A stretch of 64,000 nt of DNA, taken from the IMG/VR virus record IMGVR_UViG_3300044213_000051, positions 1-64,000 of that record, one strand, 5' to 3'. The number at the start of each line of letters is the position of its first letter. The stretch's first letter is position 1. Below, piece after piece: positions 44,462 to 62,396 of the stretch. The notes beneath the pieces were generated by a model. The model was not told the DNA's origin. It saw nothing but the letters and a program-made list of their open reading frames with translations, and did not search any database. The stretch is from a virus. Position numbers and translations under genes: made by a program.

Positions 44462-45031
44462 CTAAGTAAATTTCGGTCCTTCAAACCAACCGACTAAACT
44501 ATATCTTTTACCCTTAGTCACTGGTGTTAATCTATGATAAACAAAGGAAGGGAATGTTAACAATGTTCCTTGTTTTCTTACTATTTCTGCAGGTGGTGTT
44601 TCAGTAAGATTTTCCAAAACTAAATCGCCACCTTCATATGTTTGTTCATCTGATAATTGAAGAACGAATGTAACTTTTCTATGGTTGTTTGATGGATTAA
44701 TCCAAAAAACATCTTGGTGAGATTTATACTCACCTTTATAAGACTCATCATATTCAGTAAACTGTAAATATGGTAAAGAATTGATATTAAATCCATACCA
44801 ATTTTTATTTACATTAAGTAACATTTTCCAGTAATCTTCAAATACCATCCAGAAATCTTGATTCTCTGGATGAATCCATCTAACTTTAGATCTTCTATAA
44901 TTATCATCACCAACTTTACCTTCATATCCCAAAGTTGGATCTTCTGGAGTAATCTTTAATGCTTTTTCTATAATAAAATCGCACTGCTCTTTTGTATAAA
45001 AAGATTCATTATATACCCATTCACCTTTCAT
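44462..45031 (-). CDS. PKHD-type 2OG-Fe(II) hydroxylase in the late region
   Basis: 189 residues. The iron and 2OG site is visible as H-x-D in YKSHQDVFW, distal His in VYHRLTPV and Arg in KGKRYSLVGWF, with GGDLVLEN and LTFPSFV between them, as in PiuC/YbiX-type hydroxylases. The ATG at 45031 has TTGGAG 7 bases upstream. Placed between neck and fibre genes, it is probably made late and could hydroxylate Pro, Asn or Lys in a structural protein such as the collagen-like fibre; this is inference. Confidence 0.85.
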   Translation of the reverse strand: MKGEWVYNESFYTKEQCDFIIEKALKITPEDPTLGYEGKVGDDNYRRSKVRWIHPENQDFWMVFEDYWKMLLNVNKNWYGFNINSLPYLQFTEYDESYKGEYKSHQDVFWINPSNNHRKVTFVLQLSDEQTYEGGDLVLENLTETPPAEIVRKQGTLLTFPSFVYHRLTPVTKGKRYSLVGWFEGPKFT

Positions 45032-45042
45032 TATATCTCCAA

Positions 45043-45282
45043 TCAAATTACGTTAAGAATAATACCTTGTTCTATTTCCCTTTGAATTTGCGCAGTTAAT
45101 ATAGAAATTACATTATTTTTCATTTCTGTATTAAATTGAATTCCTTGTTTCGCCAACTGCAAATTAGTTCCTGGAACAACAGCAATCAGATTATATGTAT
45201 CTTCATGCACAACATCGTTATGTGTAAACCTGATTGTCGCAGTCCAAGACACATCATCTTCAGTAATAATTTCAACTTGCAT
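45043..45282 (-). CDS. Hypothetical protein between fibre and oxygenase (79 aa)
   Basis: Beta-rich small protein ([28 protein letters not shown]) with a C-terminal helix. It overlaps the end of the 1364-residue fibre gene by 11 bases, which suggests coupled translation and perhaps a fibre-associated role. No family recognised. Confidence 0.6.
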
Positions 45283-55227: not shown

Positions 55228-55869
55228 ATGGACAATATTCAAGCACCCCAAAATGGAACAGGTTCAGCGACTGAAGTTCCATCAGATAAACAGTTAGTTA
55301 CAAAAACTTTCGAAAAACTGTTATTCCCAACCGATATTAAAAGTTTCCAAATTTCGGATTTTGAGGATTTTCAACAGAAACTTTTGACATTTATTCAAAG
55401 TGAAGAATGTCAACCAAAAGATTCTTTAGAGCCGATCGACCCGATTTTTAAAGAAGATGACAGTATCTTCAAACTTCGCGAAATTGTATACTCTATTTGT
55501 GAACAATTACCAGAGTTTAATATACCAGAGCTTCAATACACACCAACTATTATTGGCTCACAGATATTTTATCAACAACAATACGAACACATTCCACCGC
55601 ATGCGTATGAATTTGTTCCGTTGGTATTTTCGTTCATTTTGTCATGCCCAGAATCACCCCCAGTAACTTATTATCCAGATACTCGTGGAGCAGTTCAAAC
55701 AGTTAGAGATACAGTATCTCAAAACTTAGTTGCTACTAGTTTCTCTCTGCGTGGATGGCAAGGTGAAGTTATTGTCACACCTGGATATCTACAACGTTAT
55801 GTGGAAACAAACTTGTCTGAAAGAACTTACGTTGTTCTTAATGTCAAAATTGGTTTTGCTTCCTATTAA
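55228..55869 (+). CDS. Unknown protein, the only plus-strand gene (213 aa)
   Basis: ATG at 55228 with GGAG 7 bases upstream. N-terminal 40 residues are disordered and polar, then a helical region (DFEDFQQKLLTFIQSEE; KLREIVYSICEQLPEFNIPEL), and a C-terminal beta domain (EFVPLVFSFILSCPESPPVTYYPDTRGAVQTVR...GYLQRYVETNLSERTYVVLNVKIGF) with PDTRG as the most striking motif. No family recognised and no obvious H-x-D for an oxygenase. It overlaps the PP-loop gene tail-to-tail by 26 bases. Confidence 0.75.
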   Translation: MDNIQAPQNGTGSATEVPSDKQLVTKTFEKLLFPTDIKSFQISDFEDFQQKLLTFIQSEECQPKDSLEPIDPIFKEDDSIFKLREIVYSICEQLPEFNIPELQYTPTIIGSQIFYQQQYEHIPPHAYEFVPLVFSFILSCPESPPVTYYPDTRGAVQTVRDTVSQNLVATSFSLRGWQGEVIVTPGYLQRYVETNLSERTYVVLNVKIGFASY

Positions 55870-56917
55870 ATTTAGCAGTTCGAGGAATGTAGCGTAAGCT
55901 ATAATCTTCATATAAAAATAACCAAGTCGGTATGGGGTTTCCTAAATTGGAAACCCCTTTTGGTTTGTTCCAAGCATAGTAAGAATCTCCACTATACTCC
56001 TCAATCAATTGACGCATAACCCATCTGTGAGTTAGTGCGTTTCCAACTTCTTTCGTAAATGGTTCTTTGGTTGTAATAACATAACGCTGAAAATCGTCAG
56101 TATTAAAAAAGTGATATATGTTATCTTGACGTTTCGTACTAACCATTGACGCAAACTGAGAAGTATACCAATCATAGTTAAAAATACACCACCATCTTAA
56201 ATCACGCAAAGTTTCAATTTTTTTAGGACTTGCCTTTATTGACGGAAGAATAAACTCGTGTAGCTCTGGGTTTATACATTTGGTGTAATCCATCAGTGGA
56301 TCTGGACCTTTGAACTGATGATGGAAAAATGATATATCAGTTTTCACAGTTCCAGTTGTAAAGTCGTCTGTCGGACCAAACAGTTGGTTACCAAAAAACC
56401 CTGTTACAAAAATCTCATCTTCAGGACAGTCATCAAACTCTCTTCTGGAAGTAACCTTAATTTTATGGTTTACGCCAGATGGTAAGATAACTTTATCAAA
56501 CATCGAGCCAGATTCTAATACAGAACTGTAAGTTCCATAAACAGTAATTCTTGATGGATCTTTCGCGTAGTGAATCAGCGCAAACAGAACCAATGTGCTG
56601 TCAATACCACCACTCCAAACAACGTTAATTTTCTTACCTGTTGCAAGAAGCTCTTCGCAACGTTCTTTAACTATCTGCTCGAACGACTTGTTAAAACCTT
56701 CTGGAATTTCTGGTATCTGTAGCAACCCACCCTTCATATTAAGGTAATGTGGAGTATTACCAGTTCTATCAAACACAACATTCAAATTCATGTTATGTTT
56801 CTCATAGAAGTTAAACAACTCTATAGCATTATCCGATAGATCGTCAGCAATCGTATCTGGATATTGAGCCATTACTTGTTTAACGTACCCTGTATTATAA
56901 AATAAAATTTGTTTCAT
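55844..56917 (-). CDS. PP-loop ATP pyrophosphatase, asparagine-synthase-like (no glutaminase domain)
   Basis: 357 residues. WSGGIDSTLVLFAL (residues 101-114) is the SGGxDS/T P-loop of N-type ATP pyrophosphatases, used to adenylate a carboxylate or carbonyl. Unlike asparagine synthetase B there is no N-terminal Cys glutaminase; the first 75 residues are a different small domain. The C-terminal half has HRWVMRQLIEEYSG and many aromatic residues. Candidate activities are amide-bond formation or amidation of a peptide or nucleotide. It follows a terminator after the DctP-like gene. Confidence 0.78.
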   Translation of the reverse strand: MKQILFYNTGYVKQVMAQYPDTIADDLSDNAIELFNFYEKHNMNLNVVFDRTGNTPHYLNMKGGLLQIPEIPEGFNKSFEQIVKERCEELLATGKKINVVWSGGIDSTLVLFALIHYAKDPSRITVYGTYSSVLESGSMFDKVILPSGVNHKIKVTSRREFDDCPEDEIFVTGFFGNQLFGPTDDFTTGTVKTDISFFHHQFKGPDPLMDYTKCINPELHEFILPSIKASPKKIETLRDLRWWCIFNYDWYTSQFASMVSTKRQDNIYHFFNTDDFQRYVITTKEPFTKEVGNALTHRWVMRQLIEEYSGDSYYAWNKPKGVSNLGNPIPTWLFLYEDYSLRYIPRTAKFNRKQNQF

Positions 56918-56975: not shown

Positions 56976-57923
56976 TTAATGTAATTGAATCTTGCTTACA
57001 AGACCTGGAGTGAAGTAGTCAGCAAACTTCTCGTAAACTGCAGAAGTAACTTCTTTGAATTTCTTCTGTTCAGTTTCATCCATGCGAACAACCATAACAC
57101 CCTTTTCTTCACATTCAGCTAGAATGTTTGGAATGTCAGCAACTGATTCACGACGCTCTGCACGAGCAGCGTTGAAAGCAGCAGTAGCCATAATTTCTTG
57201 AGTTTCTTCATCGAACTGAGCCATGAAGTCTTTGTTAACAATAATAGAAGTCAAGAACAAGCTGTGGGCAGTGTCATTAACAACCTTGAAAGACTTATAT
57301 TGGTCAAGTGGGAAAATACGAACGTAAGTAGATTCGCCAGCAGCAATTTCGCCACGATCAGCAAATTCGTTCATTTCTTCTAGAGCGATGTGCTCTTTTG
57401 GTTCTGCTCCAAGCAACTTAAATGTTTCAACAGCAACAGGGCTACGGCTAGTACGAACAGCTTGACCTTTCCAAGCATCTACAGTGTCAGCCTTAAAGTT
57501 AGCTGGAACAACACGATAGCCACCAGAGTAAGTGAAAGACATAGCGTGGATATTACTATTCTTAGAAACACCAGCTAACAACTCAGCACCAACTTCACCT
57601 TCCAAAACAGCGTCAGCATGGGCGTGGTCACGGAATAGGAATGGTAGGTCTAAAGCGTGTAGATCTTTGTTGTAATCAGCCAACCAAGTAGTGTAGATGT
57701 GGCTCATTTCGATAGTGCCATCATCGATCATCTGCATTAGGTCGTTCTTGCTGATTTTCTTGCCATCGTTATACTTAGCTGCATAGTCTGATAAAGAAAG
57801 AACTTCAATGTTAAACATACCATTGGTTTTTTCGTTAACTTCTTTAGCAAAGTGCTCAGCAACTTTCAAAAACAAGCCAATAGGCTCGTGGGCGATAACC
57901 CATTTTACATGTTTTTGTTCCAT
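56976..57923 (-). CDS. DctP-type (TRAP) solute-binding protein without signal peptide
   Basis: 315 residues covering the whole fold: VKWVIAHEPIGLFLKVAEHFAKEVNEKTNG, then DLPFLFRDHAHADAVL, SFTYSGGYRVVPANFKA and the family hallmark GQAVRTSRSPVAVETFKLLGAEP, whose Arg binds the ligand carboxylate. Host DctP proteins are secreted; this one begins MEQKHVKWV with no hydrophobic signal, so it should stay in the cytoplasm or be packaged. No TRAP membrane subunits are nearby. Preceded by a late box at 57998-58005. Role unknown: a ligand sensor, metabolite sink or virion part. Confidence 0.85.
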   Translation of the reverse strand: MEQKHVKWVIAHEPIGLFLKVAEHFAKEVNEKTNGMFNIEVLSLSDYAAKYNDGKKISKNDLMQMIDDGTIEMSHIYTTWLADYNKDLHALDLPFLFRDHAHADAVLEGEVGAELLAGVSKNSNIHAMSFTYSGGYRVVPANFKADTVDAWKGQAVRTSRSPVAVETFKLLGAEPKEHIALEEMNEFADRGEIAAGESTYVRIFPLDQYKSFKVVNDTAHSLFLTSIIVNKDFMAQFDEETQEIMATAAFNAARAERRESVADIPNILAECEEKGVMVVRMDETEQKKFKEVTSAVYEKFADYFTPGLVSKIQLH

Positions 57924-58250
57924 TTAAATCTCCTTTTTGTTTCTATGTAGTAGGTACCCAAGTTTAGTTAGGTCCAATATCCAGCTTTCTTCACTACTAT
58001 TTATCTTATGGTAGATTACTGGAATGTTATTTTCGACAATTATTCTTATATATTTATGAACAACTGCTTTTTGCTCCTCACTTCCAACCAACTTAAATTC
58101 TGGGATCTGGATAGATACATTGTTGTTTTGAAACGACTCTGTAGTTTCTGAATTATGATAGAAAATCCTAGAGATAGTATGTCTATCATAATTCGATCCA
58201 TATCTTGGAAATTTATTAACTTCCCAAATATAACAATCTAAAAAAGCCAT
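57924..58250 (-). CDS. Unknown protein between radical SAM and DctP-like genes (108 aa)
   Basis: ATG at 58250 is 1 base past the stop of the radical SAM gene, with no ribosome site, so translation is probably coupled. Features: FLDCYIWEVNKFPRYGSNYD, then EFKLVGSEEQKAVVHKYIRIIVENNIPVIYHKI and ESWILDLTKLGYLL. It is an alpha/beta protein of unknown family. Candidate accessory subunit or recognition element for the maturase (inference from place). Confidence 0.65.
   Translation of the reverse strand: MAFLDCYIWEVNKFPRYGSNYDRHTISRIFYHNSETTESFQNNNVSIQIPEFKLVGSEEQKAVVHKYIRIIVENNIPVIYHKINSSEESWILDLTKLGYLLHRNKKEI
57998..58005 (-). promoter_or_regulatory. Late promoter GATAAATA inside the 108-residue gene
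   Basis: GATAAATA on the minus strand, 75 bases upstream of the DctP-like start, which would allow its separate late expression. Confidence 0.5.
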
Positions 58251-58251
58251 A

Positions 58252-59721
58252 TTATTGAATAGTCGTTGGAATGCTAACAACTGGAATGTTTACAGGTTTG
58301 CGAACTTTCCAAGATTTCTGTGTACCACCAGATTTCACAAAATCAATGTCAATAACAGGTTGGCTTGTTTGTCCGTCGAATCTGATTTTTTCGCCTTGTA
58401 TTTCAACCAAAACCAATCCATCAGTCATGATAAACATAGAAGCTGCCAGTATTGCCAAATTATACCAATAGAGATTCTCGCATGCTTGACTCCAATATTG
58501 ATCTTCTAAGAACAGGCACGCACCTTGACATAGTTGAACAACTGGACAAGAAGGGCATTCTGCACGAGTTGACCAGTGATATGAGTTCTTCAAACGAACA
58601 TCTTCTAACTGATCGATATTACCAAGGTTGTGTTTAGTTAGAGAAGAAGTGTTTTGGCAAGTAGTTACGTTACCTTTCATATCGATGGCAATCGTATCTT
58701 CTTTATCCATACCACACTTTTGACCAACAACAGTAGCTGGTCTTTGGTAAACTAACGATTCAAAAAACCCTTGGATTTTCTGATTAATTGTCCAACTAAA
58801 CTGATTCTTAAACTCAATAGTTTCCCAGAACAACGAATGTAGAATTTCTTTCTTCTCATCTGGCGTTTGAATAGAGTGAGCCATGCCACTATCATCATAT
58901 GGTAACATCAATTCTTCTGTTGTTACCTGCAATTCAGTCTGTCCAATTTCAACATAATCATATCCAAGATCTTTACGATTTAATTTTTCTTGAATAAAAT
59001 CACGAACAGCTGCAATTGAAACATTCTGACGTGTCAATACACAGTTAAACGTAAATCTCATCTGACCCATTGTTTTTAAAGCATAAACAACAGCATCTTT
59101 TGCTTCTGGTTCATCCAAAGGATCTGGTCCACGGTTCTGAGCATGCAGTGGTCCATCGTGAGACATACCAATAGAGAATCCCATTTGATTGAACCAATCA
59201 ATCTTTTCTCGTGTTAATAGTGAGCCATTAGTCACCATCATAAACTGCGCATTAGGATAAACCTTACGAATCTTTTCCGCCAATGGTTTTAGAGTTTTCC
59301 AATAAACCATTGGTTCACCACCCCAAAATTCCAAACGGAATCTATCATAAGTGCTAAACTTAAAATTATTTTTAATCTTTTGAACAAGTTCTTCAGCATC
59401 CTCTGGACCACCAACTGGATCGTGTGGTTGATGTGCCTGATTGCAATATGAGCAAGCGTAGTTACACTTAAGACCCATAGTAATTTTTAGAGTTGCTGGT
59501 TTATCTGACTTCTTACCCCAGAGATCTGGGTTATGTGGATTGGTTATTTTAGCAGGTTCCCATTTTTTAGCAGTTACCTGATATTCTAATCCGTTTGAAA
59601 TGTGAGTCAATGTAGGTTTAGTGCCATCCGATTCCCAATAAACTTCAGAAGTCATTGGATCATACACTAATGTTTCTTTCACATCATTTGATCCTTGTAG
59701 GATCAACTTATATTTACTCAT
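58252..59721 (-). CDS. Radical SAM/SPASM peptide maturase-like enzyme
   Basis: 489 residues. The radical SAM cluster motif is C86-x3-C90-x2-C93 in GLKCNYACSYCNQ, followed by WGGEPM (the GGE SAM motif, about 140). The C-terminal SPASM region has many Cys residues (KCGMD, TTCQN, ECPSCPVVQLCQGAC, QACEN) to bind auxiliary Fe-S clusters, as in anaerobic sulfatase maturases and RiPP-modifying enzymes. Residues 1-75 form an extra N-terminal domain, perhaps for peptide recognition. Not a QueE (too long, SPASM present). Confidence 0.9.
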   Translation of the reverse strand: MSKYKLILQGSNDVKETLVYDPMTSEVYWESDGTKPTLTHISNGLEYQVTAKKWEPAKITNPHNPDLWGKKSDKPATLKITMGLKCNYACSYCNQAHQPHDPVGGPEDAEELVQKIKNNFKFSTYDRFRLEFWGGEPMVYWKTLKPLAEKIRKVYPNAQFMMVTNGSLLTREKIDWFNQMGFSIGMSHDGPLHAQNRGPDPLDEPEAKDAVVYALKTMGQMRFTFNCVLTRQNVSIAAVRDFIQEKLNRKDLGYDYVEIGQTELQVTTEELMLPYDDSGMAHSIQTPDEKKEILHSLFWETIEFKNQFSWTINQKIQGFFESLVYQRPATVVGQKCGMDKEDTIAIDMKGNVTTCQNTSSLTKHNLGNIDQLEDVRLKNSYHWSTRAECPSCPVVQLCQGACLFLEDQYWSQACENLYWYNLAILAASMFIMTDGLVLVEIQGEKIRFDGQTSQPVIDIDFVKSGGTQKSWKVRKPVNIPVVSIPTTIQ

Positions 59722-59787: not shown

Positions 59788-60819
59788 TTAAACCAGTGTA
59801 ATCATTAACTCAGCAAAAGTTAATTGTGGTCCACAGTTTAATTTAAATTTGATAAAATCACCAGCTGAAAGTTTGTTGTCAACGATAACGTCTTCGTATC
59901 CAGCAAATCTTGAGGGAAGATTATTTAGACCAAGATATGTGAAATCTGGAGCTACTTGACCAGTTCGTACCCCAGAAGTTAATCGAGTTTTAGATGGTGT
60001 TCCATTTACACAATTTATATCGAATGTTACTGGTAAAGTTTTATCTGGTATTCCACTCTGATATACAACTCTAAACTTATATTCAGGATTGGTCGGTAAA
60101 GAAATTGCAAATTGTCCGCCAGCAAATTTTTGTGGATCTACCCCAGGCATAACGAATGTTGATGGAACCATACTTAAAGGGACTTCAGTGGTAACAACAT
60201 TATTATTAGCGTCAAGAATTTGGAAAATGATATTTACTATATAGTTCATAGCGATATCTTTAATTCTGTCTTTGGTAGACATTTCAACTGGTGCTGGTGT
60301 AGTAGCAGAGTCTATTACTGTTGCGTGTGGTGATCCATCTTCAATAACATGGAATGTTAAAACACTAGCAGAAAAATCAGTTACTGTTCCATAAAATGAT
60401 TCAATTTGAAAACATGGAAACAATTTTTCGCTTTGTCTTGCTTGAATGTCACTCCAAATAGTATGATGAGATGTACTAGAATTTATTAGTGTTTGAGTAT
60501 ACGATAGAACATTAAATGGGTCGTTGATCGTTTCAGTTTCAGCGTCAAACTCAACGATCCAAGCCATATTGTCTGTATACTGAACAAAATCTGCTGGAGT
60601 GAACGCTCTTGTAGCTACAGTTGTATATGTAATTGGAGCGTCTACAGCAGAATTTAAGTCTGGTTTAACTAGTTTATCAACAGTAAGGTTGATTGTTTTA
60701 GTACTATCAACATATCCCATTGTTACTCTATAGTTAGAATTAACCGCAAGAACACCCTGTGGGTATGATGTTTGACTAGGATCAAATCCTACGATTGGTG
60801 TTTTATAGATTTTATACAT
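59788..60819 (-). CDS. Unknown late protein, probably structural (343 aa)
   Basis: Beta-rich and Thr/Val-rich sequence without a recognisable motif. The N-terminus YKIYKTPIVGFDPSQTSYPQGVLAVNSNYRVTMGY and C-terminus SAGDFIKFKLNCGPQLTFAELMITL look like virion surface or fibre-associated domains. It lies 13 bases after the Cys-rich gene, so the two are co-transcribed and may assemble together. No enzyme motif seen. Confidence 0.65.
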   Translation of the reverse strand: MYKIYKTPIVGFDPSQTSYPQGVLAVNSNYRVTMGYVDSTKTINLTVDKLVKPDLNSAVDAPITYTTVATRAFTPADFVQYTDNMAWIVEFDAETETINDPFNVLSYTQTLINSSTSHHTIWSDIQARQSEKLFPCFQIESFYGTVTDFSASVLTFHVIEDGSPHATVIDSATTPAPVEMSTKDRIKDIAMNYIVNIIFQILDANNNVVTTEVPLSMVPSTFVMPGVDPQKFAGGQFAISLPTNPEYKFRVVYQSGIPDKTLPVTFDINCVNGTPSKTRLTSGVRTGQVAPDFTYLGLNNLPSRFAGYEDVIVDNKLSAGDFIKFKLNCGPQLTFAELMITLV

Positions 60820-60832
60820 TTATATTCCCTAA

Positions 60833-61204
60833 TTAGCAGTTACAGTTGCATGCGCAGTTACAGTTGCAATTACAGTTGCAATTACAGTTTACGCGATAGT
60901 AACGGAACATACCAAGAGACTGTTCTTGAGAATCGTGACGCATACCAGCACCATTATATGCACCATTGGCGAAGATGTTAATACGCCAGTCTGTAGTATA
61001 TATGTTTAAGGGGATTGGTCCTGGATTACAGTTACCACAGTTACAGTTACAAGCTGTGTTACATGCGTTACATGCGCAGTTCCAGTTACAGTTACCGTTA
61101 GAATCATTCACATAACGTGCGCCAACGTCACCCTGCCATCCCCAGAAAATACCGTTAAGGTCGGTACCACCCGAATTTCTAAATCCAACCGCTGCTACTG
61201 GCAT
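60833..61204 (-). CDS. Cys-Asn repeat protein with 17 cysteines (123 aa)
   Basis: Two Cys clusters are visible: residues 39-59 (eight Cys in C-N/A-rich sequence) and 107-123, where nine Cys alternate strictly with Asn or Ala and Cys is the last residue. Between them lies a normal, Gly/Asn/aromatic domain (residues 62-104, PIPLNIYTTDWRINIFANG...GMFRYYR), and the N-terminal 35 residues look like a fibre-associated domain. It lies 1 base after an S74 fibre gene. Possible roles: metal- or Fe-S-binding tail, disulfide-linked virion protein, or substrate of the radical SAM/SPASM enzyme (inference). Confidence 0.85.
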   Translation of the reverse strand: MPVAAVGFRNSGGTDLNGIFWGWQGDVGARYVNDSNGNCNWNCACNACNTACNCNCGNCNPGPIPLNIYTTDWRINIFANGAYNGAGMRHDSQEQSLGMFRYYRVNCNCNCNCNCNCACNCNC

Positions 61205-61205
61205 A

Positions 61206-62396
61206 TTATTTCTCCAAGTTTTCTAATCGAGTATTTAACTCTTTAATAGTTTCGTTTTGTTCTTTAATTGCTTCAATCAGTAAACCAACGATGTTAGCAT
61301 AGGCAACAGATTTGAATCCCTCGGAGTCTTCTCCGACTAAGAAAGGCATAACTCTTTCTACTTCCTGGGCGATTAAACCGATTTCTGGTTTACCTTGTTT
61401 CAGATAGGAAACGCCACGCAATTGTAAAACAGTGTCTACGGCATTATTTAGCGTTTGTACGTTCTCTTTTAATCGTTGGTCAGAAGAAATCTGGAATCCG
61501 CCAGCATAAACAGTTCCACCAACACTTTCGTTACCATTAACAGTATTGCTTCCTGTAAAGGTGTTATTAGCGTTTAGACGTGGAATATTAGAACCAACGT
61601 TAATTGTTGGATTACCAGCAACACCATCTGGATTGCTAATAGTAATATCTGATCCAGCAGCCAAAGTTCTTGGAACGATTGTGTTAGTTGCTGTTCTGGC
61701 AACCAAGCCAGTTGTAGATAAGTTAGCGTAAGCTGTTAACTCTGCGCTGAATGGTTGAACGTCTGTACCAACACGAGTACCTAAAACTGCCTGAGCACCA
61801 GAAGTCGATGTTGTGGCAATAAGAGATCTGGCATAAGAAGTTAGCGATGCTGTTGTTAGGGTATTAGCACCATTAAAATAAACAACCTGATCAGCTGCAC
61901 CAGAAATCCCTGATAATGAGTCTAGTTTTGTGTTCCACGCTTGGACGTTTGTTCCGATAATCAATCCAAGATTGGCACGAGCATTTGACGCATTAGTTGC
62001 GCCAGTACCACCAACGGATACAGGAATAGAACCACCGCTAATTGAAATTGAACCAACCGACAAAGAACCAGTAAATGTAGCATTTACACCAGTAATGTTA
62101 TTTGTTGAGGTTAAATTGTAGAATGTAGAGCTACCTGTAGAATCGCGAGTAACTACAGAACTGTAATTTGGACCAGTTGGTAATGATGGATTGGATTGCA
62201 ATCCTTGTAACAAATCAGCGTCTAAACCAGATCCAACACCATCAACAGTCTCCAATTGCGTAATAATGTTATGCGCATTAAAGTCTGTGATTAATACTCT
62301 TGTCTGAATATCTGCGTTTAGGTTTGTGAAGTTGGCATCAACTTCATTATTTGTTAGGGGTGAACCCTTAGATTGTCTTAAAACGAGTGTCGCCAT
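61206..62396 (-). CDS. Tail fibre protein with S74 chaperone domain (396 aa)
   Basis: Starts ATLVLRQSKGSPLTNNEVDANFTNLNADIQTR, a common fibre N-terminus. The middle is Ser/Thr-rich repeats. From about residue 310 (SSDQRLKENVQTLNNAVDTVLQLRGVSYL) to KPEIGLIAQEVERVMPFLV is a peptidase S74 domain with Ser-Asp at the cleavage site, then a coiled coil (EAIKEQNETIKELNTRLENLE). Distinct from the giant fibre, so the phage carries at least two self-cleaving fibres. Confidence 0.9.
   Translation of the reverse strand: MATLVLRQSKGSPLTNNEVDANFTNLNADIQTRVLITDFNAHNIITQLETVDGVGSGLDADLLQGLQSNPSLPTGPNYSSVVTRDSTGSSTFYNLTSTNNITGVNATFTGSLSVGSISISGGSIPVSVGGTGATNASNARANLGLIIGTNVQAWNTKLDSLSGISGAADQVVYFNGANTLTTASLTSYARSLIATTSTSGAQAVLGTRVGTDVQPFSAELTAYANLSTTGLVARTATNTIVPRTLAAGSDITISNPDGVAGNPTINVGSNIPRLNANNTFTGSNTVNGNESVGGTVYAGGFQISSDQRLKENVQTLNNAVDTVLQLRGVSYLKQGKPEIGLIAQEVERVMPFLVGEDSEGFKSVAYANIVGLLIEAIKEQNETIKELNTRLENLEK

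Follow-up and report, generated by a model that had tools for sequence, protein, structure and literature searches.

A RiPP-like radical SAM maturase of phages probably modifies the alternating-cysteine tails of fibre-region proteins

The question raised by this locus is why a tailed phage should encode, among its fibre genes, a small protein that ends in an uninterrupted alternation of cysteine with other residues. The stretch of DNA analysed here, referred to as the window, comprises 64 kb of a source record of 87,217 bases, and the virus is a T4-like myovirus, with strong PHROG matches for portal, tail sheath, tail tube, terminase, major head protein and DNA polymerase. The protein, designated CysX, has the following features:

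60833..61204, minus strand: CysX ORF, ATG start, 123 amino acids (aa), a fibre-region protein.
60836..60886, minus strand: C-terminal tail of CysX, residues 107-123, CNCNCNCNCNCACNCNC, with invariant Cys and mixed synonymous codons.
61028..61090, minus strand: central Cys block of CysX, residues 39-59, with 8 Cys, five of them invariant in an alignment (n=19).

Cysteine accounts for 17 of the 123 residues of CysX. Nine of these were claimed in the earlier note to alternate with Asn or Ala at residues 107-123 up to the C-terminus, and translation of the ORF shows this to be exact, with Cys at 107, 109 and every second position to 123, arranged as CN or CA; the eight further Cys that it placed at residues 39-59 are likewise confirmed, at positions 39, 43, 45, 48, 52, 54, 56 and 59. 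Translated in all six frames, the 64 kb window has no other run of at least four alternating Cys, and a DNA pattern for six alternating Cys matches the whole 87,217-base record only within the CysX tail (at four overlapping places), with 0 matches in the record to the reversed pattern that served as a control. Nine homologues of CysX are found in IMG/VR. In an alignment of 19 CysX sequences, including that of the window, 14 of the 17 Cys are invariant, namely all nine of the tail and C39, C43, C45, C54 and C59 of the central block, and in 21 members of the family (again counting the window's own) the tail ends at the stop codon or one residue, a Lys, short of it. Both TGT and TGC are used at each of the nine tail Cys columns (14 sequences), and thus it is the amino acid, rather than a DNA repeat, that is conserved. 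Judged by this codon usage, the tail is under selection at the protein level, and a DNA microsatellite is ruled out as its origin, the Cys being kept while the codons mix. An AlphaFold model of CysX had a pLDDT of 43 and no confident fold, and was set aside; a tblastn search of INPHARED with CysX, run with the low-complexity filter on, gave no match.

The earlier note also placed CysX among fibre genes, and the neighbouring genes agree with this. Transcription of the minus strand passes through genes for a 430-aa protein, an 80-aa virion protein, a fibre and CysX, and then through a 343-aa gene, a radical SAM gene, a 118-aa gene, a DctP-type protein and a PP-loop protein, with a 213-aa gene (p213) opposite in direction to the block of CysX and the radical SAM gene. 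The upstream fibre contains a Peptidase_S74 domain (PF13884; 51.5 bits, cut-off 22), CysX starts 1 base past the fibre stop and ends 13 bases short of the next gene, and this gene context suggests that CysX is a component of the virion. The features surrounding CysX are:

61206..62396, minus strand: tail fibre with a Peptidase_S74 domain, directly upstream of CysX with 1 base between.
59788..60819, minus strand: 343-aa gene between CysX and the radical SAM gene, described by its position and by a fold search.
58252..59721, minus strand: radical SAM/SPASM protein of PHROG 1802, 489 aa, the proposed tail-modifying enzyme.
59443..59466, minus strand: radical SAM core motif CxxxCxxC (C86, C90, C93), present in 63/63 enzyme sequences.
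58480..58716, minus strand: seven-Cys SPASM stretch, C336 to C414, present in 61-63 of 63 sequences.
57924..58280, minus strand: 118-aa gene, kept in 7/9 relatives.
55228..55869, plus strand: p213, a distant relative of a 2OG-Fe(II)-oxygenase-like family, present in 9/9 relatives.

For the 343-aa protein, a predicted-fold search of the PDB gave no match at E <=0.001, and a search of BFVD gave seven matches at this threshold, of which the top six are phage proteins that are unnamed or uncharacterised.

The assignment of the enzyme to the radical SAM/SPASM group is based on matches to PF04055 (40.3 bits, cut-off 29.5), to the SPASM model TIGR04085 (36.5 bits, cut-off 27) and to the PHROG 1802 profile (E 1.8e-63 over residues 69-418 of 489). 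The Pfam SPASM model scores 13.9 bits, under its cut-off of 21.5, and Pfam gave no match to a PqqD/RRE domain in the window enzyme. The top-scoring curated models are mostly those of peptide maturases, with the PapB ranthipeptide maturase first (NF047865, 66.6 bits, far under 340) and the anaerobic sulfatase maturase (anSME) model close to it (TIGR03942, 65.7 bits, under 349). Because all curated models are far under their cut-offs, and because anSME scores nearly as well as PapB, the PHROG 1802 enzyme is best regarded as a separate subgroup. A second radical SAM gene adjoins the first in some of the phage loci (L148, L155, L171, L178 and others).

One feature of the SPASM region bears on what the enzyme might do. 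The anSME chain 4k37_A has extra Cys between its first two SPASM Cys, one of which presumably is an Aux I ligand, whereas no extra Cys is found at this place in any of the 63 enzyme sequences, nor in CteB (5wgg). The Aux I cluster of CteB has an open site, according to the available text of PMC6231123, and the absence of the extra Cys in the phage enzyme, as in CteB, speaks for a direct handling of Cys thiols but does not prove it. A ligand could also be supplied by another residue, like the Asp that serves as a cluster ligand in PqqE, and the Cys of CteA that is bound in CteB is not the one that forms the thioether (both from the same portion of PMC6231123).

If the tail and the enzyme belong together, they should be found together. 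In the close family the association is complete, the radical SAM gene being present in 9/9 loci of CysX homologues, and in loci L010 and L012 it is kept at about 5 kb from CysX despite swapped intervening genes, fatty-acid desaturases among them. Close relatives of the enzyme, in turn, number 27 IMG/VR loci, 22 of which have a CysX homologue; two (L015 and L031) include only 0.3 and 1.8 kb of upstream sequence, and the remaining three, with enzymes 43-45% identical, encode frames of 622-711 aa that end in or near CNCNCNCNCNCDC or a shorter form of it. The one tail-bearing protein of these three that was tested, that of L034, has Collagen repeats.

A wider set of 160 enzyme loci consisted of 80 of 98 relatives on GTDB contigs and the best 80 of at least 565 relatives in IMG/VR (E 0.001). 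Those with less than 6 kb of upstream sequence (47/160) were dropped, leaving 113, and a tail was called strict if it has at least 4 alternating Cys and is either no more than 30 aa from the end or followed by a Hint-like start. Of the 113 loci with 6 kb upstream, drawn from the 160-locus set that includes the best 80 of at least 565, 95 have a strict tail, a figure that counts the doubtful L289 (CECQCEC in an 82-aa frame). Five of the 18 loci without a strict tail have a looser Cys tail (L263, L265, L312, L385 and L379), and in 13 of the 113 no Cys tail, strict or loose, was seen. When the enzymes were clustered at 80% identity, 53 clusters with 6 kb upstream were obtained, of which 41 are strict (L289 included) and four more are loose (L263, L265, L379 and L385); L312 is strict under the slightly wider Hint rule of this dereplicated count and loose in the 113-locus count. 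Without L289 the two counts become 94/113 and 40/53. The nearest tail gene is upstream of the enzyme and on the same strand in 41/41 strict clusters, at a median distance of 1.4 kb. Across the 160 loci, the strand of the radical SAM gene has 7309 open frames of at least 60 aa, 131 of which contain a run of at least 4 alternating Cys (117 within 30 aa of the end), compared with 6 of 7503 open frames on the opposite strand, where none is within 30 aa of the end.

The count was also made from the side of the tail. A first, wide pattern (at least 120 matches) found mostly microsatellites (CTCT, CACA, CRCR), and was replaced by a pattern requiring Asn codons, which misses tails that do not start with CN and have fewer than six Cys. 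A scan of viral contigs with this pattern gave 87 loci, of which 65 were taken; each of these is an open frame of at least 60 aa whose run either falls within 10 aa of its end or precedes a Hint-like start. For 57 of the 65 tails a radical SAM gene was found (56 in the locus or record, and one more in its record), although for five of the 57 (L169, L180, L188, L200 and L224) it is a distant one only (E 1e-19 to 1e-37), which may represent another branch of radical SAM enzymes. Seven of the eight tails without a radical SAM gene are within 1.5 kb of a record end, and the eighth, L236, a CTCT-rich frame of low complexity, has no radical SAM gene in its 31.6 kb. A radical SAM gene is also present in L167, L215 and L227, which are outside the 65 and were left uncounted.

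As a control, 299 whole genomes of a single family (centre G023), not chosen for the enzyme, were used. The radical SAM gene is present in five (E 1e-40), in four of which a fibre-like tail is encoded on the same strand no more than about 3.2 kb away; the tail of G023 is the L266 locus of the wide enzyme set, and the fifth genome, G122, has no tail near the enzyme. In the 294 genomes free of the enzyme, the DNA pattern is present in 27, and no credible fibre tail was seen at the 31 places inspected, with the limit that tails not matching the DNA pattern would be missed in this control. Three of the 31 places (L403, L418 and L427) pass the mechanical tail rule, each lying under a longer ORF in another frame. 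The Fisher p for the 299 genomes is 1.5e-8, or 5e-7 if these three are counted as tails. As far as gene content can tell, tail and enzyme occur together in the great majority of the approximately 170 loci tested from either side. The co-occurrence of Cys-X homologues with a radical SAM gene, which the earlier note had proposed to check, was borne out in both directions (9/9 close loci, 57/65 tails, 95/113 enzyme loci), and the outcome that it had named as contrary, homologues widespread without any radical SAM gene, was not seen.

The tail is not confined to CysX. A blastp comparison of 150 tail-bearing frames, made with the tails masked, gave 13 components (E 1e-4), two of which (L306_3972 and L289) look spurious, and the largest of which (100 frames) is chained by single linkage. 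The CysX family of the window makes up 18 of the 150 frames; other carriers include DGTD-type and collagen-like proteins, a GNCNNGNC group, short 'IDWS' proteins of Rhodobacteraceae and Rhodoplanes (12 frames), and others. By sequence comparison, then, the tail is found on proteins without detectable mutual similarity, either in the C-terminal position or close to it, or immediately ahead of a Hint-like start, and the Cys-X trait is a general one, borne by many different proteins. Homology of CysX to the larger tail-bearing proteins was considered and dropped, the best E beyond 18 close members being 0.015. In two loci (L179, 5156-6514; L394, 5681-6563), three tandem small paralogues, each with its own Cys-X tail, precede one radical SAM gene.

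The runs share a simple grammar, which is NCNC followed by an X that is mostly N, A or D. The residue preceding the run is Asn in 138/157 runs, the first X is Asn in 148/157 and the second in 129/157; across the runs, Asn fills 486 of 795 X positions, with A, D, R, Q, T, S and others also found. Run length varies from 4 Cys, the search threshold, to 11, and NCBIfam models of Cys-peptide precursors gave no match at E 0.1 in the five tail proteins tested. In 11 distinct cases the run is associated with a Hint-like motif (...CS-CFPAGT...), the opening Cys of which ends the run or follows it by a few residues. Of seven tested, two reach the Pfam Hint cut-off of 32.1 (JWF gp28 at 47.5 and L397 at 35.3), three give hits under it (L203, L254 and L365), and two give none (L341 and L204). 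By the known mechanism of Hint domains, self-cleavage would leave the tail at a new C-terminus. Achromobacter phage JWF is a case from an isolated phage, as is its relative 2-1: gp28 of JWF has NCNCDCNCNCS directly before the Hint domain, and is encoded two genes upstream of gp30, the radical SAM enzyme. When one enzyme of the family was searched against the 50,697 records of INPHARED at E 1e-20, only JWF (two records) and 2-1 matched, and at E 1e-5 the window enzyme matches 28 further records, all at less than 29% identity.

Certain other genes recur between the tail and the enzyme. One family (245-341 aa) is found there in 24/41 dereplicated loci, and a tested member, that of L241, gave no Pfam hit; the second commonest family is found in 12/41. 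The 343-aa protein of the window is not claimed as a member of the family that holds the same position in 24 loci, the match being at E 0.03. In addition, a 2OG-oxygenase-like family is present in 15/41 tail loci, and the one member tested (L247) reaches PF13759 (2OG-FeII_Oxy_5; 41.7 bits, cut-off 27). The p213 protein matches the profile of this family distantly (E 2.5e-7 in a search of 15 proteins), and does not keep its WHE motif, which we take to hold the second iron-ligand His. In L010 (9457-13173) and L012 (9261-13698), two desaturase-like genes (tested in L010) have taken the place of the cassette between CysX and the radical SAM gene, accompanied by genes that read like 2OG-oxygenases and had no Pfam hit of note.

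The relatives of the enzyme that have no tail are informative as well. A tree of 62 enzymes contains 47 labelled as having a tail (the doubtful L289 among them), 8 with none and 7 with too little upstream sequence. The 8 tail-less enzymes occupy three places, namely a clade of five (four Comamonadaceae and one gammaproteobacterium), one Sulfuricella and two Bdellovibrionota, and presence or absence of the tail requires three changes on the tree, as against 7.6 in shuffles. No phage genes were recognised by eye around the five tail-less enzymes examined. Among the loci tested, a YcaO gene is just upstream of the enzymes of L271 and L282, both in the clade of five, L282 also having a nitroreductase domain, and PqqD is just downstream of the enzyme of L290, a tail-less chromosomal relative. 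Just upstream of the enzyme, L271, L282, L284, L297 and L307 encode short peptides in which a Cys is conserved (SDC, TDC or GDC, mostly followed by xxISPxP), and these loci are candidate RiPP clusters; the upstream peptide of the tail-less L300 ends similarly but lacks the Cys, and NCBIfam precursor models fit neither the L297 nor the L307 peptide. Because YcaO, PqqD and short conserved-Cys peptides adjoin them, these chromosomal kin outside phages look like RiPP maturases.

The arrangement in phages, a candidate substrate encoded beside a SPASM enzyme, has the form of a RiPP gene pair, and it is very likely that the CysX tail is the substrate of the phage's radical SAM enzyme. The best explanation overall, with a probability of roughly 0.6, is that the enzyme modifies the tail by forming thioethers; in more general terms, a RiPP-like phage maturase would modify the Cys tails of fibre proteins, probably as thioethers, a chemistry favoured and rated first on the kinship of the enzyme and the Cys pattern. 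According to this model, CysX would be a small tail-fibre-region protein of a T4-like phage, and its nine-Cys tail, perhaps with the central block, would be the substrate of the enzyme encoded 1.1 kb downstream. The enzyme would act on the tail Cys and form C-S thioether bonds along the tail, giving a rigid and oxidation-proof fibre end, in the manner of the RiPP maturases of sactipeptides or ranthipeptides. The Hint forms would expose the tail by self-cleavage, and the modified tip may serve host attachment or particle stability. The Cys are the likely site of modification because X is variable while Cys defines the run, and a varied X would suit a bond to a backbone carbon better than one to a single kind of side chain. 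Against reading the enzyme as such a maturase are its failure to reach any curated maturase model (PapB, 66.6 of 340) and the equal score of anSME (65.7). PapB forms its thioether at Cys-X3-Asp/Glu of the substrate, and the alternating CXCX does not fit a Cys-X3-Asp spacing, which likewise counts against this reading.

Known systems provide partial precedents. PHROG 1802 proteins, for instance gp30 of JWF (36% identical to the window enzyme), belong to the same enzyme family, and the records consulted label them as radical SAM or sulfatase-maturating enzymes only and name no substrate. PapB, CteB with SCIFF, and AlbA are likewise cases of a SPASM radical SAM enzyme beside a Cys-rich substrate, CteB resembling the phage enzyme in its lack of extra Cys between the first two SPASM Cys. 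However, the known substrates of ranthipeptide and sactipeptide maturases are short peptides with a leader, whereas the end of a phage fibre-region protein is proposed here, and CX3D or nested hairpins are found in the known peptides in place of the alternating CX. The His-Xaa-Ser system (HxsA/HxsB/HxsC) also combines a repeat-bearing protein with SPASM enzymes, its two-enzyme set recalls the phage loci with two radical SAM genes, and the HxsB and HxsC models match under cut-off; its repeat is His-X-Ser, rather than Cys-X, and is not known from phage fibres.

The first alternative is that the same enzyme makes some other modification, such as conversion of Cys to formylglycine after the manner of anSME, epimerisation, or alteration of the Asn or Ala residues, with the 2OG-oxygenase-like genes perhaps adding hydroxyls. 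This is unlikely, if the most credible of the alternatives. The anSME enzyme, which acts on a single Cys, aligns with the phage enzyme over the core and SPASM region and its model equals that of PapB in score, one JWF record labels the enzyme an anaerobic sulfatase-maturating enzyme, the 2OG-oxygenase-like family is present in 15/41 dereplicated tail loci, and X is mostly Asn (486/795). Yet the extra SPASM Cys of anSME is absent in 63/63 sequences, and the variation of X, with Cys defining the run, would again point to Cys as the site.

A second alternative, which must be called doubtful, is that alternating Cys point inwards in a fibre trimer and bind a column of Fe, Zn or Fe-S, the radical SAM enzyme being otherwise engaged or helping in the loading. 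CxC motifs bind soft metals, and strict alternation is what an inward-facing beta-strand would need. HxH iron sites have been described in T4 gp37 and other phage fibres (PMC11705849), and these too place alternating ligand-X in a fibre; they consist, however, of His in separated motifs, with no enzyme named in the available part of that source, whereas contiguous Cys and a radical enzyme are found here. A dedicated SPASM enzyme would be superfluous for a simple metal site, yet 57/65 tails are accompanied by a radical SAM gene, and the two commonest families between tail and enzyme (24/41 and 12/41) are not obviously metal-loading.

It is very improbable that the tail is a docking or assembly signal, or a disulfide ladder, while the enzyme acts elsewhere on the fibre. 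The NCNC start is the most constant part of the run (first X Asn in 148/157), as a recognition motif might be, but runs of 4 (the threshold) to 11 Cys would suit an iterated reaction better, and most carriers of different groups share no other detectable sequence. Mere co-inheritance in a tail module, for which the synteny of the whole block among the close relatives of the window could speak, is the least credible reading and is largely refuted, in that the pair persists in L010 and L012 while intervening genes are replaced, persists at 36-50% enzyme identity and on dissimilar carriers, and that CP20 and ChrisDB, the two other phages with a radical SAM gene that were examined, have no run of at least 3 alternating Cys within 8 kb of their distant radical SAM gene.

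Enzyme-made backbone or thioether chemistry has been thought of as belonging to peptide natural products. If the thioether reading is correct, virions carry such chemistry at the point of host contact, PHROG 1802 gains a substrate and a testable role (at least 565 IMG/VR stretches encode a relative at E 0.001, the best 80 of which were examined), the Hint domains on some fibre-region proteins are explained, and new enzymes for cross-linking protein ends become available. In its boldest form, for which the odds are about even, the proposal is of a widespread modification of viral structures, in which a dedicated radical SAM maturase of phages and prophages, mostly of Pseudomonadota as judged by contig titles, would join the alternating Cys at the tips of fibres into an unbroken ladder of thioether bridges, in some cases with exposure by Hint domains, giving an adhesive or piercing tip of a chemistry new to viruses. 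No earlier report of the tail or of the tail-enzyme pairing was found in searches of the open-licence PMC literature directed at the tail and at phage radical SAM enzymes. Pelagimyophages have radical SAM cassettes in their host-recognition cluster, a substrate not being named in the available portion of PMC7029224.

Other genes of these loci are also of note. L153 (7615-10834) encodes a different protein that has a CECECTCTCT... stretch close to its end; next come a distant radical SAM gene (E 2.5e-8) and a further gene with a CxxxCxxC motif, perhaps an instance of the same strategy served by another enzyme family. In the window, the phage tail-region cassette includes a TRAP-type DctP solute-binding protein (56976-57923, minus strand), with no signal peptide recognisable by eye, which 7/9 relatives keep. 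The PP-loop protein (SGGIDS; 55844-56917, minus strand), weakly like asparagine synthase, LarE and TilS, is also kept in 7/9 relatives, and another 2OG-Fe(II) oxygenase (phrog_61) is encoded at 44462-45046 on the minus strand, among structural genes.
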